64,000 nucleotides of DNA, taken from NCBI RefSeq assembly GCF_900167905.1, contig NZ_FUYZ01000001.1, positions 558,001-622,000 on the forward strand, written 5' to 3'. The stretch comes from Soonwooa buanensis (GTDB lineage Bacteria > Bacteroidota > Bacteroidia > Flavobacteriales > Weeksellaceae). Shown piece by piece: positions 1,485-63,921 of the stretch (position 1 is its first letter; the number at the start of each line of letters is the position of its first letter). The position numbers and the translations under genes are program-made. The notes beneath the pieces are model-generated. The model worked only from the letters and a program-made list of their open reading frames with translations. It was not told the DNA's origin and searched no databases.

Positions 1485-3731
1485 ATGAATTATACTTCGG
1501 AACTCAAAAAATTTTTAACAAGCCAATATATTTTTGCAGGGACAAGAATTGCCTTGGCTATTGTTATTCCGAGTATTATTCTAGCGCATTTTGGCTTATT
1601 GCAAGAATATTTTCTTTTCCCAATGGGGACAAGTTTTGTAGGCCTTACCGACCAACCTGGACCATTTGTAAGACGACGTAACACTTTAGCTTTTGCTGTC
1701 ATTTCTTACTTTTTTGTTGCTTTAATAGCCAGTCTCGTCAAAGATTTCCAAATTATCGTTTATTTAGAAATCATCCTTTTTGGAATGTTCTTTTCGCTAA
1801 TTGGCGTCTACGGAACACGACTTGCTGGCGTTGGATCTTTATCTTTAGTCGTCCTCAGCATCTTTATTGATGGACATCTGACGGGACATGATGTTATTAA
1901 AAGTTTAATCATATTTCTGGGAGGTTGTATTTGGTTTGTCATTGTATTTTTAATTGTATCGACTTTACAACCCTACAAATTAGCGAGTCAAATGGTCGGC
2001 GAAAACTATCTAGAACTTGCAGATTATTTAAGAATAAAAGCTAAATTTTATCGAAAAAATGAAAATGTTGATACACTTCTCAGCCAACTTATTTCGCAAC
2101 AGATAAAAATAAAAGACCAACAAGAAGCAACGCGAGAAATCGTTTTTAAAACCAGAAAAATCGTCAACGAATCAACAACGCAAAGTCGAATTTTGATGTT
2201 GATGTTTCTTAATTCTATTGATCTTTATGAGAAACTATTCACCTCGGAGAATGATTATAGAAAACTGAATCATGTTTTTGGAGAAACCAAAATCCTAAAC
2301 ATGATGCACGATTATTTGACCAATATGGCCAACGAAATTACCAATATCGGTATTGCGTTGCAAGGTAATATTAGGACAAAAGAGCAATTCAATTTTGATA
2401 AAGCTTTAAAAGAGATTTATCACGAGTTTTACGAACATCGTCTTAAACAAATCAATTCGGATAATCTAGAAGACTTTATGCTTCTTCGCCAAGTTTTGAT
2501 GCGTATAACGGACGTAACGGACGAGGTGAAAACAATTTTCAGAGTTTTTGATCAGGATGTTAAATTGGCGAAAAGTCTTTCTACAGGGCTCGATCTCAAC
2601 AAATTTGTGCCCAAAGAAGAACGTCTTAATCGCAAAGTGCTATTGAGCAATATATCTTTAGATTCTGGACATTTTCGTCATGCTGTTCGTGTGACTTTAG
2701 CATTGTTTATTGGTTATCTTTTTTCTAAAATGGAATTTTTAGGAATTGGTCATGCTTATTGGATCATGATTACCATTACAGCCATCCTAAAACCCGCCTA
2801 TAGTACGACAAAACACCGCAATCTTCTTCGACTTTACGGCACTATTGCAGGTGGAGTCGCAGCTTATATCGTTTTGTATTATATTACGGATCATAGCATT
2901 TTGTTAGCAATTTTATTGACGACAATGACTTTATGTTTCAGTCTTTTAAAATCAAAATATTTTTGGGCTGTATTTTTCATGACCATTTATGTTTTTTTAT
3001 CCTTTAATTTTTTACGTCCGGGTAATGTCAACCTCATCTTTAAAGATCGAATTATAGATACTGCCATTGGAGGTGCTGTCACATTTTTGGTAGCTTATTT
3101 TGTTTTCCCTGTTTGGGAACATACTCAGAATTTACAATTGATGAAAAAATCGGCGAAGAGCAATTTGGAATATTTCCGTGTGGTGATGGATCTTTTCATT
3201 AATAAAAAAGAAAATGATGAGCAATATCGTCTTAAAAGAAAGAATGCCATTATCGATCTTGCCAACCTGTCGGATAACTTCCAAAGGATGATTTCGGATC
3301 CGAAAGATCAGCAAAAAAAATTGGAAACTGTACATCAATTTGTGACGACTTCTCACCTATTGACCGCCTATACAGCTTCGCTGTCGCAATATGCAAAAAA
3401 TGAGGATCAATATCCTGAAATTGACAGCCAAAGTTGGAAAATAAAAATTTCTTCGGAATTGATTAGAAGTAATTCTCTTTTACATAAAGAAGAATTCGAT
3501 CATGATATTATCGACCAAAGCAAAATAGAACCCGACGATCACGTTGATGAATTGCTCGAAAAACGCAGACGCGAACTTGACGAAAGCGAATACAAAGACC
3601 ATCGTGATCCTACAAAAATTAGTCATTTAACAGAGTTAAAAAGTATTCAGGATTTGTTAGAACTGATATATGATGTTGCTAAAGACCAAAGAAAAGTGGT
3701 CGAAAATTACTACAAAAACAAATCCGAATAA
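1485..3731 (+). CDS. FUSC-family (YccS/YhfK-like) inner-membrane protein
   Basis: This 748-residue protein has two hydrophobic blocks (about residues 18-165 and 405-560), each followed by a charged, probably cytoplasmic helical region. That duplicated plan, and the second block with its TKHRNLLRLYGTIAGG segment (compare the RxxGTxxGG signature), is typical of the FUSC superfamily that includes YccS, YhfK and aromatic acid exporters. The substrate cannot be read from the sequence. The C-terminal 90 residues are very rich in Asp, Glu, Lys and Arg. The ATG at 1485 lies 20 bases after the porV terminator hairpin, so the gene probably has its own promoter or depends on readthrough. Confidence 0.8.
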   Translation: MNYTSELKKFLTSQYIFAGTRIALAIVIPSIILAHFGLLQEYFLFPMGTSFVGLTDQPGPFVRRRNTLAFAVISYFFVALIASLVKDFQIIVYLEIILFGMFFSLIGVYGTRLAGVGSLSLVVLSIFIDGHLTGHDVIKSLIIFLGGCIWFVIVFLIVSTLQPYKLASQMVGENYLELADYLRIKAKFYRKNENVDTLLSQLISQQIKIKDQQEATREIVFKTRKIVNESTTQSRILMLMFLNSIDLYEKLFTSENDYRKLNHVFGETKILNMMHDYLTNMANEITNIGIALQGNIRTKEQFNFDKALKEIYHEFYEHRLKQINSDNLEDFMLLRQVLMRITDVTDEVKTIFRVFDQDVKLAKSLSTGLDLNKFVPKEERLNRKVLLSNISLDSGHFRHAVRVTLALFIGYLFSKMEFLGIGHAYWIMITITAILKPAYSTTKHRNLLRLYGTIAGGVAAYIVLYYITDHSILLAILLTTMTLCFSLLKSKYFWAVFFMTIYVFLSFNFLRPGNVNLIFKDRIIDTAIGGAVTFLVAYFVFPVWEHTQNLQLMKKSAKSNLEYFRVVMDLFINKKENDEQYRLKRKNAIIDLANLSDNFQRMISDPKDQQKKLETVHQFVTTSHLLTAYTASLSQYAKNEDQYPEIDSQSWKIKISSELIRSNSLLHKEEFDHDIIDQSKIEPDDHVDELLEKRRRELDESEYKDHRDPTKISHLTELKSIQDLLELIYDVAKDQRKVVENYYKNKSE

Positions 3732-3786: not shown

Positions 3787-5763
3787 CTATTTAACGATTA
3801 CTTTCGATGTCGTAACAACAGAATTAGTAGTCAGTTTAACAATATAAAGACCTTTAGCGAAACTAGCCGCAGATATTTTATTTGTATTTGAAGCAACACT
3901 TACCAAATTACCAACAGCGTTATAAACCTCGAACTTATCAGCTTTTTCTAAACTTCCAATAACTTGCGACTTATCATCATAATAGATTTTTGCTTTATTT
4001 TTAGCAACATCCGTCGTTGCCAAAGTTGCTAGCGGCAAATCGTAAAATTCTGTTGTAATATCGTAAGTGGAATTACGATAAAGCATAGCTAATTTTTTAA
4101 TGTCAGTTTCTGTTTCATCTCTTACAAAACCACTAGAAATAATATCGCCGTATGCGCCATCACCTTTTACTGAAAAAATAGGTGTTTGATAATCTTTAGC
4201 TACGCTAAACTCATTATACAACTTTGTCCCTGTTGGGAATTTATGTTTATGAATATAAGAAAACTCAACATCATTATCATTATTATAAATAGTTGGTGAT
4301 AAAGTTTCGGAATTAAGAACAGGAAAGAACATTTGTGGATTTGTACCGATATTAAGTTTAATTTCCTTTTCCAATTGTCCCGTTTTTGAATACTGATTAA
4401 TAATACCATAAGCGACATTATCAATTGTTTTTCCTTGTCCTAAACCTGCTAAATAACTAAAACTTCCTGCATTCGGAATTCTATTAAAATTGGCGGAAAG
4501 CGTTTGTCCATTATAATTTGCTGGGAAAGAAAAACCATCTGTCCAAGACTGAATATTAAAAGTATCTATAGAACTTCCAAAATCACCTTCACCAATAATA
4601 AAACCAAACTGATCATCTTGTCCAGCAATAGGTGTCATCTCCATTGTAGAGATAATGTCCTTCTCTAAAGATTTGATACGTTGACCTTGCTCGTTCGCAA
4701 CATAATAGTTAGCCCAGCTATTATCATTAATAAGATCTTCGTAACGAATCGCATACATAATTTCTAGCGCATCATCATCATTAAAGGTCTTGTCTGTAAT
4801 TTCGAATCTATAGTTGAATGGCAAGGTTCCAAAATCTCCCAAGGCAAATACATACGGAGAATCGGGATGTATTGAAGTCAAATCTAATGGGATTGTCTTT
4901 TCAAGATTAAGATTAACGTCAAAAATTTTCACCAAAAGATGATTATCTGGCGTCACTTCGAAAGTGTCATTATCCATGAAAAGCTTTTCGTAATGTGCCA
5001 TTACAATCTTATCTTCCCCTTTTATCTTTAAGATACTAAGAGGTGAACCTCCGTAGTTATAGAATAAATCAGTATTAATTGTTTCTGTTTTTAATACATT
5101 ATAATTAGTATCATGCAATGTAAAAGTGGTTGAAGGATCCTTTTCTACAGATGTTAATATACGAAGATCACCAGAAGCCGACTTCAAGAATTTTCCTGAA
5201 GTAGCGTCGAATTCTTTTAATTTTTCACCATTTTCGTTAACTACCCAGATTGCATTTTTTTGATAGTCCGGACCTGATCCTCCTTCAAAATAATGAACAA
5301 ACATCATTATTCTTCTAACGCCATCTACTTTTGACATTGTATTAATAACCGTCACATGATTTGCAGTTGTCGGAATACTAATGTTAAAGCTTTTGGTTTC
5401 GTTAAAGTTAGCATCCAAAAACTTGTAAGTCATATTAGCACCAGCACCGTATTTGTATTTAATTTGATAGTTCTCTACCAGACCAGTTTCTACAACTTTA
5501 ATTTGTCCCCATTCATCAGCAACAATCGTATTGCTAGGTGTAATGGATGCTGTTTTGTCAGCAGTCCCGTATGTATTAAAAGACGCATCAAATATTGGCA
5601 TCTGTTTTTTTGCAGAAACAAATTTTGTAAAATCGGGTTTAGTTTTTAATACTTTTTCAGATTTGTTAACTTTTAATCCTGCATTTTCAAAATTGATTAC
5701 CTCTTGCGCATTTACTATATTTGAAGCTAGTAATGTAGCTGCCAAAATAATAGATTTCTTCAT
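3787..5763 (-). CDS. T9SS type A cargo protein of unknown function
   Basis: This 658-residue secreted protein starts with a signal peptide (MKKSIILAATLLASNIVNAQ). The C-terminal 80 residues form a type A sorting domain (VYNAVGNLVS, then ASFAKGLYIVKL, ending KVIVK), which directs export and surface anchoring through PorU/PorV. The middle has repeated short beta motifs (for example DTNYNVLKTETI and DVNLNLEKTIPL), suggesting a beta-propeller-like narrative of values, but I recognise no named domain and no catalytic motif. It lies 18 bases downstream of another T9SS cargo gene on the same strand, so the two are probably co-transcribed and may work together at the cell surface. Confidence 0.85.
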   Translation of the reverse strand: MKKSIILAATLLASNIVNAQEVINFENAGLKVNKSEKVLKTKPDFTKFVSAKKQMPIFDASFNTYGTADKTASITPSNTIVADEWGQIKVVETGLVENYQIKYKYGAGANMTYKFLDANFNETKSFNISIPTTANHVTVINTMSKVDGVRRIMMFVHYFEGGSGPDYQKNAIWVVNENGEKLKEFDATSGKFLKSASGDLRILTSVEKDPSTTFTLHDTNYNVLKTETINTDLFYNYGGSPLSILKIKGEDKIVMAHYEKLFMDNDTFEVTPDNHLLVKIFDVNLNLEKTIPLDLTSIHPDSPYVFALGDFGTLPFNYRFEITDKTFNDDDALEIMYAIRYEDLINDNSWANYYVANEQGQRIKSLEKDIISTMEMTPIAGQDDQFGFIIGEGDFGSSIDTFNIQSWTDGFSFPANYNGQTLSANFNRIPNAGSFSYLAGLGQGKTIDNVAYGIINQYSKTGQLEKEIKLNIGTNPQMFFPVLNSETLSPTIYNNDNDVEFSYIHKHKFPTGTKLYNEFSVAKDYQTPIFSVKGDGAYGDIISSGFVRDETETDIKKLAMLYRNSTYDITTEFYDLPLATLATTDVAKNKAKIYYDDKSQVIGSLEKADKFEVYNAVGNLVSVASNTNKISAASFAKGLYIVKLTTNSVVTTSKVIVK

Positions 5764-7361: not shown

Positions 7362-7976
7362 CTACTCCAAAACCACCGAAAAGTAATAATCATCAATTTT
7401 TCGGACTTTCACTTTGAAATAATCTTCAAAATTATGATCGTAAACGCGTGCTCTAACTGTGAAATCTTCTGTCGGCAGAAAGCTTTGGATATCGTAATGT
7501 TTCTTTAACGACCAATATTTGGAATGATGGATTTTGTACAAAGCTTCCTTCACACTCCATATGCTTGTTAGATAATCGACCTCGTGCTTGTTATCAATAA
7601 AGTCGTTCTCATGAAGAATAAACTTATGGCGAATAAGCTTAATTTTTTCTTTTTTAAGTTCGAGATCGAGACCGATTTTTGATTTCGAAATTCCTATCGC
7701 CGCCAAAGGGAAAGAATGACTTATCGAAATATTAAAATCTTGTGGTTCTAGAAATGGTTCGCCATTGTCTTTGTAAAGGATTTTATGATTGGGTAAAATC
7801 TGTTTTAGCATTTTACGAACCATCAAAACCTCTTTTATTTTCTTAGGATGATACTCTTTAACTTTATTATAATTCTCCTTTTCTAACAAAGTATCCATAT
7901 CCAAAACTTCCTGTTCATCATATTTCCAAATAAGAAGTTGTGCTTTATCATCCGAAAAATCTCTGTACAAAGGCAT
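7362..7976 (-). CDS. 4'-phosphopantetheinyl transferase superfamily protein
   Basis: This 204-residue enzyme carries the Sfp-type signatures: ISISHSFPLAAIGIS around residue 85, IGLDLE around residue 100 (the metal-binding Asp and Glu) and WSVKEALYK around residue 145. These proteins transfer 4'-phosphopantetheine from coenzyme A to a serine of acyl or peptidyl carrier proteins. No carrier protein, polyketide or peptide synthetase gene is nearby, so it may serve the fatty-acid carrier protein or a remote pathway such as flexirubin or aryl polyene synthesis (inference). It has its own upstream region, with a possible TAnnTTTG box at 7994-8001 on the minus strand. Confidence 0.9.
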   Translation of the reverse strand: MPLYRDFSDDKAQLLIWKYDEQEVLDMDTLLEKENYNKVKEYHPKKIKEVLMVRKMLKQILPNHKILYKDNGEPFLEPQDFNISISHSFPLAAIGISKSKIGLDLELKKEKIKLIRHKFILHENDFIDNKHEVDYLTSIWSVKEALYKIHHSKYWSLKKHYDIQSFLPTEDFTVRARVYDHNFEDYFKVKVRKIDDYYFSVVLE

Positions 7977-21683: not shown

Positions 21684-21844
21684 GTGTTTAGTTGATGGTT
21701 GACAGTTGTTGGTTTTTAGTTTTGGGTTTAAGGTTTAAGGTTTAAGGTTTAAGGTTTAAGGTTTAAGGTTTAAGGTTTAAGGTTTAAGCAAAGTTAATTC
21801 CTAATTCCTAATTCCTAATTCCTAAAATCTAGACCTAAACCCAA
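21684..21844. repeat. Heptad-period element with nine GTTTAAG and four AATTCCT units
   Basis: The 161 bases are 23 consecutive seven-base units in one register. They begin GTGTTTA, GTTGATG, GTTGACA, GTTGTTG, GTTTTTA, GTTTTGG, continue with nine identical GTTTAAG units (21726-21788), then CAAAGTT, four AATTCCT units (21796-21823), AAAATCT, AGACCTA and AACCCAA. The left half is G-initial and T-rich, the right half A-initial, so the halves are partly complementary. It sits between prmA and truB, ending six bases before the truB start codon. The remaining 79 bases to prmA (21845-21923) contain nothing I recognise. Confidence 0.85.
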
Positions 21845-38218: not shown

Positions 38219-38521
38219 ATGGCAATAGATGATATGGCTAAACAAGCCTCAGCTGGTGGAGAATCTGAAGTAAAATTCTTAACACCACTTGATATCAATA
38301 CAAAATCTGAAAAGAAATATTGTAGATTCAAAAAATTCGGAATTAAGCATGTAGATTATAAAGATGCTGATTTCTTATTACAATTCGTTAACGAGCAAGG
38401 TAAAATCTTACCAAGACGTTACACAGGAACTTCACTTAAATATCAAAGAAAAGTATCTGCAGCTATCAAAAGAGCTAGACATTTAGCTTTGATGCCTTAC
38501 GTAGCAGACCTTTTAAAATAA
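38219..38521 (+). CDS. rpsR: 30S ribosomal protein bS18
   Basis: This 100-residue protein contains the bS18 core: [40 protein letters not shown] and the basic [20 protein letters not shown]. The N-terminal 30 residues ([20 protein letters not shown] and following) are an extension typical of Bacteroidota. It lies between rpsF and rplI, and two hairpin or heptad elements separate it from rplI. Confidence 0.97.
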
Positions 38522-38580: not shown

Positions 38581-38617
38581 TAGTTGCTGAATAAATTAAT
38601 TAATTCTAACTGTTTTA

Positions 38618-38697
38618 GATAAAAGACAAAAGATAAAAGATGAAAGACATAACTCTTTTTTCTTTGCTCTTTCTTCTTTCCTCTAAAATCTAAACAA
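38618..38697. repeat. Heptad-period inverted element just upstream of rplI
   Basis: The left arm is GATAAAA, GACAAAA, GATAAAA, GATGAAA, GACATAA (38618-38652). After CTC, the right arm is TTTTTTC, TTTGCTC, TTTCTTC, TTTCCTC, TAAAATC, TAAACAA (38656-38697). Reverse-complemented, most right-arm units read GAnnAAA, the same pattern as the left arm, with mostly five or more of seven bases matching per unit. It ends nine bases before the rplI start codon. Confidence 0.8.
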
Positions 38698-41543: not shown

Positions 41544-42593
41544 ATGGCAACAAAACAACTTACAAAAAGAGAAAAAAGAATCAACAAAAGTATCTCGCTT
41601 CTGGCTTGGATTCTCATAATTGCGGGCGTTGTAGGAATGCTGAGCTTTTACCTTTTTAGTCGAAAAAATGTGACGACCAACGATGCACAAATTGAGCAAT
41701 ATATAACGCCAGTTTCTAGCAAAGTTTCTGGTTTTATCAAGGAAATTAAGTTTAAAGAAAATCAGTTTGTGAAAAAAGGCGACACTTTGTTGATTATTGA
41801 TAATCGTGAGTTTAAAAACCAAGTCAACATTGCAGAAGCCAATCTACAAGCGACAACGGAAACTGTAAAAACCGTGCAAAGTGGCGTGAATACGAAGGAA
41901 AGTGATTCAAAAATTATCGATGCAAAAATTGCTTCTGCGAAAATTGACATTTGGAAAACTGAACAAGATTATAATCGTTACAAAAATCTTCTTGAGCAAA
42001 ATGCCGCAACAGAACAGCAATTCGAAAATATAAAAGCCTCTTACGAACAAGCAAAAGCCAATCTTCTTGCTTTGCAACAACAAAAAAATGCGATAAAAGC
42101 AAGCGCTAACGAGCAACAGACGAGAGTTGCGCCAGTGCAAAGCCAGATTCAGCAAAGTTCGGCAAGTCTTAATAATGCGAAACTTTTTCTTTCTTATACG
42201 GTTGTCACTGCTCCTTACGACGGTTGGGTTGGCAAAAAAACAATTCAGGAAGGTCAATTGATAAAAGAAGGTCAGGCTTTGGTGCAAATTGTTTCTAAAG
42301 AAAAATGGATTATCGCCAATTTTAAAGAAACGCAACTTGGAGAAATCGACCAAAATAAAGAGGTTACGATAACTGCCGACGCATTCCCGAACATTGAATT
42401 TAAAGGAAAAATAGAAAGTATTTCGCCTGCTTCGGGTTCGCAGTTTTCTTTGGTAAAACCTGACAATGCAACTGGAAATTTCGTAAAAATAGAACAACGT
42501 TTTCCCGTAAAAATTATTCTTGAAAACAATCAAAACAACGACAAACTCCTTTCTGGAATGAATGTTTTGGTAAGTGCTAAGAAAAATGAATAG
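41544..42593 (+). CDS. HlyD/EmrA-family membrane fusion protein
   Basis: This 349-residue periplasmic adaptor has one N-terminal membrane helix (about residues 14-36), then a split biotinyl-lipoyl domain (YITPVSSKVSGFIKEIKF and later TVVTAPYDGWVGKKTIQEGQLIKEGQALVQIV), flanking a long coiled coil (SYEQAKANLLALQQQKNAIKA). A beta-barrel domain follows (IIANFKETQLGEIDQNKEVTI). This plan is EmrA/HlyD-like and connects the MFS pump to TolC. Its stop codon TAG at 42591-42593 overlaps the first base of a large heptad element. Confidence 0.94.
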   Translation: MATKQLTKREKRINKSISLLAWILIIAGVVGMLSFYLFSRKNVTTNDAQIEQYITPVSSKVSGFIKEIKFKENQFVKKGDTLLIIDNREFKNQVNIAEANLQATTETVKTVQSGVNTKESDSKIIDAKIASAKIDIWKTEQDYNRYKNLLEQNAATEQQFENIKASYEQAKANLLALQQQKNAIKASANEQQTRVAPVQSQIQQSSASLNNAKLFLSYTVVTAPYDGWVGKKTIQEGQLIKEGQALVQIVSKEKWIIANFKETQLGEIDQNKEVTITADAFPNIEFKGKIESISPASGSQFSLVKPDNATGNFVKIEQRFPVKIILENNQNNDKLLSGMNVLVSAKKNE

Positions 42594-42769
42594 TTGCTGG
42601 TTTATGGTTGATAGTTGTTGGTTTTTGGTTTTTGGCTTTTAGCTTTTAGCTTGAAACCTTAAACATGAAACTTTAAACGATAAACCTAAAAACTTTAAAC
42701 CTAAAAACTCGAAACTTTAAATCCCGAATCTCGCATCTCAAATCTCAAATCTCAAATCTCAAAACATAA
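42593..42769. repeat. Large heptad-period element filling the EmrA-to-MFS gap
   Basis: The whole gap between the two genes reads as 25 heptads with two single-A insertions. Left: GTTGCTG, GTTTATG, GTTGATA, GTTGTTG, GTTTTTG twice, GCTTTTA twice, GCTTGAA. Right: ACCTTAA, ACATGAA, ACTTTAA, ACGATAA, ACCTAAA, ACTTTAA, ACCTAAA, ACTCGAA, ACTTTAA, ATCCCGA, ATCTCGC, ATCTCAA four times (42735-42762) and AACATAA. The left units begin with G and the right with A, with G-TTT facing AAA-C when folded. Confidence 0.88.
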
Positions 42770-42773
42770 ATCC

Positions 42774-44339
42774 TTGTCACACAATACAATATATCATAAA
42801 TGGGTTCCGCAATGGTTGAAACTTCCGTTGCTGATTATGGCGATGTTTCCGCATTTGATGCTGATGTCGTTGTTTCATTCCAACAGCGCGTTTACATCAT
42901 CATTTTTAGATGTAGATTCAGACGATTTGCAATATCTTTTGATGTTGATGTACGGTACAATCGTGGTTACACTTTTGGTTTTACCAAGATTTCTAGCCTA
43001 TTTCAGTGTCAAATATTACATTTTGTTGATGTCATCGGTTTCCATCATTATATTATATGTCGTCTCGGTAACCAACAACTATCACGTGATTTTGGTAATG
43101 CGATTTTTGGAAGGAATTTTTGGGGTTTTGGAAGGTGCTATTTTTTTACCATTAATCACCGCCGAACTAAAAACCAAACACGCGAGAATCGTCGCTTATC
43201 TTTTTCTTTATGCCATAATGTTGACTGGAGGTACGATTACAACAAGTTTACTAAAAACCAGCATCGAAAATTACAACTTTCAACACATGGTTTTAATGAT
43301 AGTTTACTTCCACATTTTTGTGTTGATTGTTGCGTTTTCAATATTTAATACCAACAGATTTTTTGCTAAAATTCCGTTATACCAATTGGACCACGTAAGT
43401 TGTTTTTTACTTTGGTTGAGTTTGCAATCTGGCGCTTATGCCATTATTTATGGGAAAAGATTGATGTGGTTAGAATCTAATCAAATTGTTTTTTGTCTAT
43501 TCCTTTTTATGATTTCGTCGGGTTTATTTATTTTAAAACAGAAATACAGCAAAAGACCGATTTTCCATTTAGAAGTCTTTTCTTACGTCCATATTTTAGT
43601 CGGAATTTTGTTATTTTTTATATTTTATGTTATTCGTGCAGGTCTTAACAATGTGTACAGCATTATGGCAAACGTTTGGAAATGGCCTTGGGAATACATC
43701 AATAATATTCAATATTTCAATGTTGGAGGAACAATTTTGGGTATTTTAATTTCTGGAATTTTGTTGGTACGCGCAGTCTCTTCAAAAACGATTTTCGCTT
43801 CTGGATTTGCAATTTTAGCCATCGATTGTGCTTGGTTTACTTACGTATTTTATCCTGACACAACTTTATGGACAATTGCGCCACCTTTGTTTTTACAAGG
43901 TATTGGACAAGGACTTTTGTTTACGCCACTCGTTATGTACATCATCACGGGACTTCCTCCAAATTTAGTTTCAAATGGCGCTGTAATGGGAACAACGGTT
44001 AGGTTTTGGACGACTGCAATTGGATATTCAATTATGCAAAATGCTATTTTGTATTTAAGTTTAAAACACGCTGATTCTTTGAGTATGAATTTTTCACCAA
44101 CCAACCCTATTTTTAGCACTTTATGGAATAGTAATTTTAACTCAAATCTTAGCAAATTAACTTACAATGACGCTGTCAGCGTAACGATTGGTGGTTTTAA
44201 ATCTAAAATTTCAGCGCAAGCACTTTTGCTTTCAAACATGGAAATCTTCACAATTTTATTCTGGATTGCTCTTGCAACTACAATTATCATTTTGCTTTAT
44301 AAACCTGCAAAAATTGGTGTGAGAAATATTTTTTATTGA
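42774..44339 (+). CDS. MFS efflux transporter (EmrB-like), TTG start
   Basis: This 521-residue inner-membrane protein has about 14 hydrophobic segments and lies directly after TolC and EmrA genes, so it is the likely pump of that tripartite system. The major-facilitator features are weak by eye, for example FLEGIFGVLEGAIFLPLI near residue 113 and GIGQGLLFTPLVMYIITGLP near residue 378. The reading frame has no ATG near its beginning; the first usable start is TTG at 42774, four bases after the heptad element, and the frame stays open back to the stop at 42702. The first ATG in frame (residue 23) would remove part of the first membrane segment, so TTG is preferred, but a start altered by the repeat is possible. 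Confidence 0.85.
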   Translation: MSHNTIYHKWVPQWLKLPLLIMAMFPHLMLMSLFHSNSAFTSSFLDVDSDDLQYLLMLMYGTIVVTLLVLPRFLAYFSVKYYILLMSSVSIIILYVVSVTNNYHVILVMRFLEGIFGVLEGAIFLPLITAELKTKHARIVAYLFLYAIMLTGGTITTSLLKTSIENYNFQHMVLMIVYFHIFVLIVAFSIFNTNRFFAKIPLYQLDHVSCFLLWLSLQSGAYAIIYGKRLMWLESNQIVFCLFLFMISSGLFILKQKYSKRPIFHLEVFSYVHILVGILLFFIFYVIRAGLNNVYSIMANVWKWPWEYINNIQYFNVGGTILGILISGILLVRAVSSKTIFASGFAILAIDCAWFTYVFYPDTTLWTIAPPLFLQGIGQGLLFTPLVMYIITGLPPNLVSNGAVMGTTVRFWTTAIGYSIMQNAILYLSLKHADSLSMNFSPTNPIFSTLWNSNFNSNLSKLTYNDAVSVTIGGFKSKISAQALLLSNMEIFTILFWIALATTIIILLYKPAKIGVRNIFY

Positions 44340-51069: not shown

Positions 51070-51078
51070 AGCTTGTTT

Positions 51079-51134
51079 GGTTGTTGGTTTTAAGTTGATG
51101 GTTGATGGTTTTTAGTTTAAAACCTAAAATTTAA
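51079..51134. repeat. Heptad-period element between the GT2 and exonuclease genes
   Basis: Eight heptads run in one register: GGTTGTT, GGTTTTA, AGTTGAT, GGTTGAT, GGTTTTT, AGTTTAA, AACCTAA, AATTTAA. The GGTTTT at 51107-51112 can pair with AAAACC at 51119-51124. The element spans most of the gap and ends 11 bases before the ATG of the exonuclease gene. Confidence 0.78.
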
Positions 51135-51145
51135 AAAAGAAAAAA

Positions 51146-60146: not shown

Positions 60147-63100
60147 TTACTTAAAATACTCCACACCATTTTTGAAAATGTTGTGGTAGTTTGCAGTTGG
60201 AATGTTTTTCATTAAACCTTCTGCAAAACGTTCTGGATGTCCCATTCTTCCGAATATTTTACCATCCAAACTCGTGATTCCTTCAATTCCGAATAATGAA
60301 TTATTTGGATTGAACGGCATTCCGTGAGCGATGTTTCCATCAAAATCAATGTATTGTGTCGCGATTTGTCCATTTTTGTAAAGTTCCGTCAACACCTCTT
60401 CCGAAGCCATAAAACGACCTTCACCATGAGAAATCGGAATCGTATATTCCAAACCTTTCATACCTTTTAACCAAGGAGAATCTTCGTTAACAACTTTCAC
60501 ATTCACCATTTGAGAAATGTGTCTTCCAATGGCGTTGTGCGCCAATGTTGGAGAATTTGCGTCCAAATCACGGATTTCACCGTAAGGAAGCAAACCAGAT
60601 TTCACCAAAGCTTGGAAACCGTTGCAAATTCCTAAAATCATTCCGTCGCGTTGTAACAAAGCGTGAACAGCATCTTTCATCTTTTCGTTTTTCAAAACAT
60701 TCACAATGAACTTTGCTGAACCATCTGGCTCGTCACCCGCCGAGAAACCTCCCGAGAAAACCAAAATTTGAGATTGTTCGATTTCTTTTACCCAAGCATC
60801 GATACTTTCATTTAATTTATTAAAATCAAGATTGATTAACGGCAAACTCGAAACTTCCGCACCTTCTTTTCTGAAAGCATTTTGCGTTTCATATTCACAG
60901 TTCGTTCCAGGGAAAACTGGAGCAAAAACTTTAGGCTTAGCAAGATCATGTTTCTTAATATGAATCGTTCTTGGGTTTGTAGAATTTAAGCTTTCATCGA
61001 TATTAACAACGATTTTTTCATTCTCCGAAGTTGGGAAAAGATTTTCGAAAGTTCCAGTGAAAACAGATACTAGAGCCGAGACGCTAGATTCAAGACCATT
61101 TATTGTGAGTGTTGAATTTTCAACAACATTTCCGATTTTTTGTATAGTTGGATGCGATAATTCCTCAACAGATTCAATGATTAATCCACCAATATTTTTT
61201 TCTAAAATTTGATTTTCATTTAAAGAAACGGTCGCTCCAAGATTATTTCCAAAAGCCATTTTAGCCAATGCAACTGCTACTCCACCTTCTTTGATGGTTT
61301 TTGCAGAAACAATGGTTTTTCGTAAAATTCCATCATGAATAAACTCGTAAATGTCTTTTAAAACCTCATAATTAGGAAGTCCATTTTCGTCCGCTTGATG
61401 GTAAAAATGATACAAATGATTTCCTGCCAATTTGAATTCTGGCGAAATAATATGACGCTTCACGCCGTTTGCACAAGCAAAAGAAATCAAAGTTGGCGGA
61501 ACATTAATGTTCTGGAATGTCCCACTCATGGAGTCTTTTCCTCCGATTGCAGCCAATCCAAGATTCATTTGAGCATTGTAAGCTCCCAACAACGACGCCA
61601 TTGGCTTGCCCCATTTATCAGCTTGATTTCCTAATTTCTCAAAATATTCTTGGAAACTCAAACGTATTTTTTTGTAATCGCCACCCATCGCAACGATTTT
61701 AGAAACGCTTTCTACAACAGCATTTGCAGCACCAACCATCGAGTTTTGACTCGAAATATCGGCATCAAATCCCCAACTCGCCAAAGAAACGGTTTCTATA
61801 TTTTCAGCGTTCAAAATTGGAAGCGTTTGCACCGAGCCTTCCATTTCTGTCAACTGATATTTTCCTCCCAAAGGCATCGCAACCGTCGTCGCTCCCACCG
61901 AAGCATCGAACATTTCTAACAAACCTTTTTGAGAAGCATTATTTTTATCTTTTAAAATATTTACAAAATTGTCTTCTGTAAAGGCTATTTTTTCTGTTTT
62001 TACAGGCTCTAAGTGAGAAATCTCAACCGTTTGTGTTTTCGCACAACCGTTCGTATCCAAGAAATCACGACTTAAATCCACAATCTTGTTGCCTTTCCAG
62101 AACATTTGCATTCTTCCAGAATCGGTCACTTTTGCAACGACAACCGCTTTGATGTTTTCTTTTTCGCAGAACTCAATGAATTTAGCTTCGTCTTTCGCTT
62201 CGATAACAACCGCCATTCTTTCTTGAGATTCAGAAATCGCCAATTCAGTTCCGTTCAAACCTTCATATTTTAAAGGCAAAACATCCAAATTAATTTCCAA
62301 AGAATCTGCAATTTCACCAATCGCAACAGAAACGCCACCCGCTCCAAAATCGTTTGATTTCTTAATTAAAGTCGTTACTTCAGGATTTCTAAACAAACGT
62401 TGAATTTTACGTTCCTCAACAGCATTTCCTTTTTGAACTTCCGTAGAAAGTGTATGAATAGAGGTTTCGTCTTGCTCTTTTGAACTTCCCGTTGCTCCAC
62501 CAACACCATCACGACCCGTTGCACCGCCTAAAAGCACAACAATATCACCATTTTCAGGCTTTTCACGACGAACCCACGTTTTTGGAACCGCACCAACTAC
62601 GAAACCAACTTCCATTCTCTTGGCTTTGTAACCTTCATGGTAAATTTCGTTCACTAAAGTTGTCGCCAAACCGATTTGGTTTCCATACGATGAATAACCG
62701 TTTGCAGCTTGTTTCGTAATCGTTCTTTGGGGAAGTTTTCCCGCAATTGTATCTGAAATTGGTTCTAAAACATTTCCCGCACCCGTCAAACGCATCGCCT
62801 GATACACAAACGCACGCCCAGACAAAGGGTCACGAATCGCACCACCAAGGCACGTTGAAGCTCCACCAAAAGGCTCAATTTCCGTTGGGTGATTGTGAGT
62901 TTCGTTTTTGAACAACAAATACCAAGGTTCTTTTTTTCCGTCGTATTCAGCTTCGATTTCAATGGTACATGCGTTGATTTCGTCTGAAACCACAAGGTTT
63001 TCTAAGTTCCCCGTTTTGCGGAAATATTTGGCAGCGATAGTTCCCAAATCCATTAAAGAAATTGGTTTTTCTTCGCGTCCTAAGAATTTTCTTTTTTCTA

Positions 63101-63836
63101 AATAATCATTGAAAATAGTTTCCAAAGTCGATTTAAACTGACCTTTGAATTCAATTTCTGTTAATTCTGTTTCGAAAGTCGTGTGACGACAATGGTCGCT
63201 CCAATAGGTATCCAAAACTTTAAGTTCGGTTTCGGTTGGATTTCTGTTTTCTGATTTAAAATGAGCTTGAATAAACTCTAAATCGTCCAGTCCAAATGCA
63301 AAACCTATCTTATCATAAAAGTTTTTCAATTCCTCTGAACTCCAATCTTTAAAACCATCATAAACAATAACTGGTTGTGGCTCGTTCTCAGCAGGAATTT
63401 CTAATTTTGATAAATCTTTTTCTTTAGATTCTACTTTATTAATCAACAAATCCTTGATTTTTATCAAATCTGAATCGTTGATTCCCGAAAGTTCAATTAA
63501 TTTTCCACTTCTAACTGTTGCGTTGCCATTTTGCGTCAACAAAGCGATGCATTGCTCCGCAGAATCGGCTCTTTGGTCGTATTGACCTGGAAGAAATTCG
63601 GTTGCGAAAAATGTATTCTTCACAGGATTTTCTTCGTGCAGAATATCAGTAACCGGATCCACAAAAGTAGAATTCACCACTTTTTGAAAATCGGCATCTT
63701 CAATTCCGAAAATATCGTAAACATTATAAACTTTCACGCTTTCGATGTTGGGAACGATGTTCAAGATTTCCGAAAAAATCTTTAGACTTTCCACATCAAA
63801 CAAGCCTTTCTTTTCTACAAAAATTCTTTTATTCAT
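60147..63836 (-). CDS. purL: Phosphoribosylformylglycinamidine synthase (large single-chain form)
   Basis: This 1229-residue enzyme makes FGAM from FGAR, glutamine and ATP in purine synthesis. It is the large single-chain form: an N-terminal PurS-like region (about residues 1-160), two AIRS-type synthase halves with FKNETHNHPTEIEPFGGASTC at about residue 330 and GGKDSMSGTF around residue 790, and a C-terminal glutamine amidotransferase with the cysteine in ILGICNGFQALVKSG (about residue 1080), the histidine in SHGEGRF and the GHPER segment at the end. A heptad element begins eight bases upstream of the start codon. Confidence 0.98.
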   Translation of the reverse strand: MNKRIFVEKKGLFDVESLKIFSEILNIVPNIESVKVYNVYDIFGIEDADFQKVVNSTFVDPVTDILHEENPVKNTFFATEFLPGQYDQRADSAEQCIALLTQNGNATVRSGKLIELSGINDSDLIKIKDLLINKVESKEKDLSKLEIPAENEPQPVIVYDGFKDWSSEELKNFYDKIGFAFGLDDLEFIQAHFKSENRNPTETELKVLDTYWSDHCRHTTFETELTEIEFKGQFKSTLETIFNDYLEKRKFLGREEKPISLMDLGTIAAKYFRKTGNLENLVVSDEINACTIEIEAEYDGKKEPWYLLFKNETHNHPTEIEPFGGASTCLGGAIRDPLSGRAFVYQAMRLTGAGNVLEPISDTIAGKLPQRTITKQAANGYSSYGNQIGLATTLVNEIYHEGYKAKRMEVGFVVGAVPKTWVRREKPENGDIVVLLGGATGRDGVGGATGSSKEQDETSIHTLSTEVQKGNAVEERKIQRLFRNPEVTTLIKKSNDFGAGGVSVAIGEIADSLEINLDVLPLKYEGLNGTELAISESQERMAVVIEAKDEAKFIEFCEKENIKAVVVAKVTDSGRMQMFWKGNKIVDLSRDFLDTNGCAKTQTVEISHLEPVKTEKIAFTEDNFVNILKDKNNASQKGLLEMFDASVGATTVAMPLGGKYQLTEMEGSVQTLPILNAENIETVSLASWGFDADISSQNSMVGAANAVVESVSKIVAMGGDYKKIRLSFQEYFEKLGNQADKWGKPMASLLGAYNAQMNLGLAAIGGKDSMSGTFQNINVPPTLISFACANGVKRHIISPEFKLAGNHLYHFYHQADENGLPNYEVLKDIYEFIHDGILRKTIVSAKTIKEGGVAVALAKMAFGNNLGATVSLNENQILEKNIGGLIIESVEELSHPTIQKIGNVVENSTLTINGLESSVSALVSVFTGTFENLFPTSENEKIVVNIDESLNSTNPRTIHIKKHDLAKPKVFAPVFPGTNCEYETQNAFRKEGAEVSSLPLINLDFNKLNESIDAWVKEIEQSQILVFSGGFSAGDEPDGSAKFIVNVLKNEKMKDAVHALLQRDGMILGICNGFQALVKSGLLPYGEIRDLDANSPTLAHNAIGRHISQMVNVKVVNEDSPWLKGMKGLEYTIPISHGEGRFMASEEVLTELYKNGQIATQYIDFDGNIAHGMPFNPNNSLFGIEGITSLDGKIFGRMGHPERFAEGLMKNIPTANYHNIFKNGVEYFK

Positions 63837-63844
63837 TTTTTATT

Positions 63845-63921
63845 AGATGTTAGATATTAGACATTAGATGTTAGACAAGAGACAACCCTCTAAATTCTAA
63901 CTTCTAATCTCTAACTTCTAT
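63845..63921. repeat. Heptad-period inverted element upstream of purL
   Basis: Eleven heptads run in one register. Left: AGATGTT, AGATATT, AGACATT, AGATGTT, AGACAAG, AGACAAC (63845-63886). Right: CCTCTAA, ATTCTAA, CTTCTAA, TCTCTAA, CTTCTAT (63887-63921). The reverse complements of the right units are mostly TTAGAnn, the same pattern as the left arm, giving an imperfect long hairpin. It ends eight bases before the purL start codon (minus strand). Confidence 0.82.

Follow-up and report, generated by a model that had tools for sequence, protein, structure and literature searches.

What fills the space between two efflux genes of Soonwooa buanensis with units of seven bases, and why those units change from G-bearing to C-bearing along the gap, is the question raised by positions 42593-42769 of the window (the whole stretch of 64,000 nucleotides that was analysed). 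An outer membrane efflux protein gene precedes the first of the two genes, and the features of the junction are arranged as follows:

41544..42593, + strand, EmrA/HlyD-type membrane fusion protein gene, upstream of the gap (Pfam HlyD_D23 and HlyD_3); the last base of its stop codon is at 42593
42593..42655, + strand, G arm of nine G-initial heptads, GTTNNNN then GCTTNNN; its first base is the last base of the EmrA stop codon
42656..42769, + strand, C arm of sixteen A-initial heptads and two extra A's, drifting from ACCTTAA to ATCTCAA; it ends 4 bases before the MFS start
42774..44339, + strand, MFS transporter gene, downstream of the gap, EmrB-like by neighbourhood (MFS_1 match below the Pfam cut-off); its TTG start at 42774 aligns with the ATG of Chryseobacterium orthologues

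The element is a period-7 array of 177 bases, and re-reading of the sequence upheld the earlier note's parse into 25 heptads with two single-A insertions, nine units being G-initial and the next sixteen A-initial. Four copies of ATCTCAA are present near the end of the array as claimed, but the final unit is AACATAA. Identity at lag 7 is 0.735, compared with 0.28 +/- 0.036 in dinucleotide shuffles (n=2000, maximum 0.418); the top identity over lags 3-30 in 1000 shuffles is 0.430. The units drift along the array, such that over lags 7 to 42 identity within the G arm falls from 0.83 to 0.50 and within the C arm from 0.71 to 0.37. The units do change from G-initial to A-initial, but the change is better described as one from G-bearing, C-poor units to C-bearing, G-poor units; the best split by script lies at about 42635, within the G-initial stretch, with 15 G and 1 C to its left and 8 G and 31 C to its right. 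GG is present on the + strand and GGG is not; CCC, which is GGG on the other strand, occurs once. No Rfam 15 family matches at gathering score anywhere in the 64-kb window, and a known RNA family was therefore rejected as the identity of the element; a plasmid or phage origin was likewise rejected, as the 177 bases have no match in either collection (blastn, E 1e-5, low-complexity filter on).

Heptad elements in the genome and the phylum

Six segments exceed the lag-7 threshold in the window and represent five elements; lags 4-6 and 8-13 give no segment, lag 14 gives four and lag 15 two, and five shuffles of the window give none at lags 4-15. The other four elements, which carry no strand assignment, are:

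21691..21825, second element, GTTGATG-type and GGTTTAA units, the core GCAAAGTTAA, then TAATTCC units
38617..38694, third element, before the ribosomal L9 gene and two genes after the ribosomal S6 gene, with an ORF at 38219-38521 between
51077..51145, fourth element, occupying the whole space between glycosyltransferase and exonuclease genes
63829..63920, fifth element, TTAGATN then TCTAACT units, next to where the minus-strand gene 60147-63836 starts

The genome was sampled over 852 kb of its 3.33 Mb (the window and 40 further stretches), with ORFs called by a simple longest-ORF script that places gene edges approximately. Of the lag-7 segments in this sample 46 are in gaps and 8 in ORF calls, and each other lag from 4 to 13 gives 1-6 gap segments. 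Merging of the lag-7 segments leaves 42 elements, 36 of them in gaps, which make up only 77.7 of the 852 kb; the six within ORF calls include some that are plainly arrays in doubtful or cut ORFs. The densities are biased by stretches that were picked for known repeats (C8:140001-160000, C10:80001-100000, C12:240001-260000, C29:400001-440000 and those on C9). Edges of the gap elements tend to coincide with those of ORFs, 27 of the 36 being at most 15 bases from an ORF edge at some end and 11 at both. Among gaps of at least 60 bp an element is present in 31 of 374. By arrangement, the counts are 26 of 240 where the genes run in the same direction, 4 of 85 where they diverge and 1 of 49 where they converge (same-direction against the rest, Fisher p=0.018).

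Non-periodic 16-mers common to another element are found in 19 of the 42 elements (two with overlapping flanks) as opposed to 2 of 42 control gaps; the contrast points to some dispersal through copying from locus to locus. Other elements are made up of single-G units such as GAATTAT; three copies of GAATTAT, taken as a marker, occur in 4 of 100 family genomes and 7 of 148 phylum genomes, the genome itself being counted in both, and single units are thus not widely shared, although period 7 is. Stretches of 31 other phylum genomes contain 26 gap segments at lag 7, 6 at lag 8 and no more than 3 at any of the remaining lags between 5 and 12, with nine very short or cut stretches omitted; L152, L167 and L170, picked for repeats, hold 6 of the 26.

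Several further sequence features accompany the arrays. A GC-richer, REP-like dispersed sequence of about 26 bases, TTCGAGTAGCGCAGCGTATCGAGAAG, is located in or beside heptad elements at two loci, L192 (about 3550-3590) and L208 (about 4080-4170), which account for three listed elements, two with overlapping flanks. In one genus of the family (genome G011), period-10 segments of the TTTGANNTNG type stand beside period-7 arrays at L175:15420-15454, L187:3248-3280 and 7883-7961. Two heptads such as GAATTAC and GATTTAG alternate at L091:14043-14221 and L192:3472-3735, giving a period of 14 built on 7, and a two-armed element of about 80 bases at L093:16977-17142 appears by eye to be a whole tandem duplication.

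The order of the arms is fixed. The 36 gap elements comprise 16 two-armed elements that run from G to C, none that run in reverse, 17 with one arm and 3 that are unclear; without the stretches picked for repeats the two-armed count is 11 of 11, and the 11 two-armed gaps of other genomes (six from the 64 Chryseobacterium loci described below, two from other family members and three from the phylum) follow the same order without exception. The reverse complement of a G-then-C element keeps its order, and G after stops with C before starts amounts to G then C in any gene arrangement, hence the order by itself does not distinguish a cause at the DNA level from one at the RNA level. Single arms can be placed by the same rule: of the 17 counted here by eye, 13 lie closer to the predicted edge, 3 to the opposite edge, and 1 is equally far from both, while the expected and other edges are preferred by 27 and 3 segments in Chryseobacterium, 10 and 2 in the phylum and 6 and 1 in the sister species G001; other family members show no preference (3 and 3). 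Control gaps display a weak tendency, 95 against 72 of 201. Across the elements the G strand leaves stops as the coding strand and faces starts as the non-coding strand; 3 of the 17 single arms are contrary to this. Since single-G, AT-rich units obey the rule, runs of G or quadruplex formation are not its general cause, which must lie either in the making of the arrays or in the RNA beside starts and stops.

The same gaps in related species

One scan returned 67 loci related to the junction, of which 64 from Chryseobacterium were compared (L076, L078 and L079, from other genera, are excluded from the counts). The EmrA-MFS gap measures 2-560 bp in these loci; an array of period 7 or 8 is present in 28 of the 64 and none in 36. 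Twenty-five loci have period-8 segments (30 in all; the 26 that pass a higher threshold are all within the EmrA-MFS junction) and five have period-7 segments, that of L073 lying outside the EmrA-MFS junction; L077 features one G-bearing and one C-bearing heptad array, and L028 a heptad array. The octads start directly after the EmrA stop (offset 0) in L024, L026, L027 and L058, and C-bearing octads stop 1-3 bases short of the ATG in L033, L037, L038, L039 and L072. Runs of at least two TTTTAGAG/TATTAGAG units, from 2 to 12 copies, are found in 17 of the 64 loci. In L013, the best full-length match (73% identity), only 2 bp separate the EmrA stop from the MFS ATG, and the C-terminus of EmrA aligns; the array is therefore dispensable in a relative, and the genes can adjoin without a spacer. 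L075, a partial match (75% over 302 residues), has a gap of 270 bp in which no TTTTAGAG/TATTAGAG run reaches two units. By eye, the EmrA-MFS gaps in many of L013-L075 contain, 3' of the first arrays, a second inverted repeat that is better conserved (AGCGAAAAGGC ... GTCTTTTCGC).

Forty-eight orthologous gaps of at least 20 bp were compared with G001, their edges anchored by protein alignment; the median protein identity between the two species is 86% (99 reciprocal best hits), and no close orthologue of the studied MFS gene was found in G001 (best 22%). Median gap identity is 0.405 for the six gaps with an array here compared with 0.725 for the 38 that are array-free in both species (one-sided p=0.009). 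Three of the six (L084:16374, L086:5345 and L191:18983) correspond to shorter, array-free sequence in G001, the array at L191:18983 being 192 bp against about 9 bp; the remaining three (L086:14368, L088:3456 and L192:3407) have arrays in both. Array identity is 0.71 at L086:14368 and 0.76 at L088:3456, and such well-kept arrays indicate that some elements are inherited and that not every array is fast-changing. At L082:15372 the arms have different units in each species and look complementary by eye within each.

The earlier note had proposed looking for changes in whole units of seven at this junction, and had counted relatives with an aperiodic gap as evidence against its reading. Changes in unit steps are found in form, as 2 to 12 copies of octads at this junction and as G arms of four heptads here and five in G001 at L086:14368, each compared across species; aperiodic relatives are found in part, with 36 of 64 gaps free of arrays and one reduced to 2 bp. 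The array-free and 2-bp gaps imply that the array is not a conserved structure.

Growth and order of the arms

Averaged over 26 elements, identity within arms at lags 7 to 42 falls through 0.77, 0.72, 0.68, 0.65, 0.62 and 0.61. This decay with distance fits the copying of neighbours with errors or local duplication, and not a single amplification followed by even mutation; together with the ordered switch in 16 of 16 two-armed gap elements it bears out the objection, raised from this locus alone, that slippage of one fixed unit is inadequate. On balance, 42593-42769 is probably a two-armed intergenic heptad array of a class dispersed in this genome and phylum, self-copied in 7-base steps and tolerated as a spacer. 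New units would be copied imperfectly from their neighbours by slippage during replication or by repair synthesis, and the spacer between the pump genes presumably has no locus-specific function. The fixed order may be set by the making of the arms, through extension of G-bearing 3' strands from both sides, instead of by selection on RNA. Neutral slippage by itself gives no reason for G units to precede C units, which counts against this explanation, as do the 16-mers common to separate elements, the promoter-like core near the switch of some two-armed elements (see below) and the two arrays that are well kept in G001.

That order is the arrangement of two fused telomeres, and one alternative is break healing: a double-strand break in the gap would be resected, its 3' ends extended with G-bearing heptads and the ends joined head to head, placing G before C on both strands. 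The G-to-C order of all 16 two-armed elements here and all 11 elsewhere agrees with such an event, as do the T-rich G arms (A 1154, C 150, G 789, T 1563), the often unrelated units of left and right arms (L096:9383, L084:16375, L095:7740), the lack of complementarity between arms beyond chance (p=0.86, see below), as though they had grown independently, and the three of six compared arrays that stand at shorter, array-free sequence in G001. Against it, the other three have an array in G001 too, separate loci share related cores and edges, and no enzyme or template was identified. Homogeneity along the arms, tried as an indicator of growth direction, gave no signal: inner and outer halves are equally homogeneous (0.807 and 0.798; 17 arms against 18, with 8 ties). 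Break healing is given a small chance, and its fuller form a slightly smaller one, in which the arrays would be scars of telomere-like healing with self-templated G-heptads (octads in the Chryseobacterium junction), no fixed template and a clade-specific step length.

An RNA hairpin, in which the G arm would pair with the C arm to protect the mRNA, couple translation or bridge the stop and start codons, draws on the fold of 42593-42769, which beats its shuffles (z -2.66, and -2.15 in a second run), on better-matched arms or strong folds in some elements (38617, 63829, L093:16977, L208:7203) and on the complementary-looking arms of L082:15372, kept in two species despite differing units. As a class-wide feature it was rejected: arms are no more complementary within elements than between them (permutation p=0.86, 19 two-armed elements), the mean fold z of the 36 elements is -1.03 compared with -1.87 in 60 control gaps, and L013 has only 2 bp at the same junction. 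A special RNA structure is unsupported as a common property of the class, though this one element folds better than its shuffles; the earlier note had proposed to probe the structure of the region. A functional hairpin is considered improbable.

Selection on the transcript is also doubtful, to about the same degree, in the form of a G-poor, C/A-rich leader favoured for translation in a phylum that lacks Shine-Dalgarno sequences, and of a central TAHHTTTG promoter in a subfamily of elements. C arms do tend towards start codons and G arms towards stops, as the 13 of 17 single arms show, and a TAHHTTTG core lies near the switch in 7 of 19 two-armed elements where 1.0 is expected; the motif is reported as the -7 element of promoters in Flavobacterium (PMC6847099, PMC9723704), and the subfamily core at the switch is AATTAATTTTG or TTAACTTTG. 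A leader does not explain, however, the lack of any C arm after a stop among the 16 two-armed elements. The seven cores are almost the same in sequence and hence not independent, the core in L084/L121 is oriented against both genes, that of L126 is between convergent ORFs, and 42593-42769 has no such core; a promoter role of the core is at most putative. The conserved core AATTAANTTTGCYW was tried separately and rejected, the genome having 11 matches and 6 to the reversed pattern, with 8 of the 11 in heptad elements and 3 outside. A bidirectional terminator, with the C-rich, G-poor RNA of either direction serving as a Rho site, is very unlikely: both strands of two-armed elements do finish in a C-bearing, G-poor arm, but convergent gaps, where it would be most useful, hold an element least often (1 of 49), and no terminator-like hairpin was found in the 42593-42769 gap.

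Known heptameric repeats

Positions 42593-42769 belong to the known intergenic heptameric repeats, as an AT-rich variant with drifting units: the period is exactly 7, the elements are dispersed in many gaps and enriched outside genes, and unit number differs between related species, with heptads at L086:14368 and with octads at the EmrA-MFS junction. The STRR (short tandemly repeated repetitive) heptanucleotides of filamentous cyanobacteria are also tandem and lie between genes; they consist of a few fixed units, while the units described here vary and drift.

The heptads of Xanthomonas and Nostoc, GGGNATC or GGGGA(C/T)T, are described in the parts of Rehm et al. 2015 considered here as mostly intergenic, mainly between same-direction genes, and varying in unit number and sequence between close species (PMC4692102). 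Their G strand is the coding strand downstream of stops and the non-coding strand upstream of starts, Xanthomonas has 70 and 75 pairs in 'convergent orientation', read here as G then C, and Nostoc has few paired repeats; Calothrix heptanucleotides are mentioned in the same parts (PMC4692102). The present elements resemble these in being mostly intergenic, in their same-direction gaps, in the variation of unit number and sequence between close species and in the orientation of G to stops and starts. They differ in having AT-rich units, of which many contain one G and which change gradually from one end of the array to the other; a run of at least three G per unit, as in the GGGNATC type, is absent from 42593-42769.

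The TAACTGA direct repeats are reported, in the parts of MacGregor 2015 covered, with mixed heptamer assemblages from Beggiatoaceae, Cyanobacteria and five Bacteroidetes (PMC4679880). TAACTGA gaps contain other heptamers alongside, relatives have shorter gaps with no obvious repeats, indels between two Cyanothece strains are mostly in 7-nt steps, and in the Guaymas Beggiatoa genome the repeats are mostly just upstream of starts (PMC4679880). The likeness extends to intergenic heptads in Bacteroidetes, mixed heptamers within one gap, array-poor relatives and changes in steps of one unit. The TAACTGA unit is absent from 42593-42769 and, unlike the arms described here, bears both G and C; a G-then-C rule is unstated in the parts of that paper covered. 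The rule for AT-rich heptads is not stated in the part of the open-licence literature that was read, and searches of that literature listed no paper on such arrays in Chryseobacterium. What the present elements add to these systems is that AT-rich units, many with a single G, keep the G-then-C rule, and that the period changes at one orthologous junction; this change from 7 to 8 provides a natural comparison for what sets the step length.
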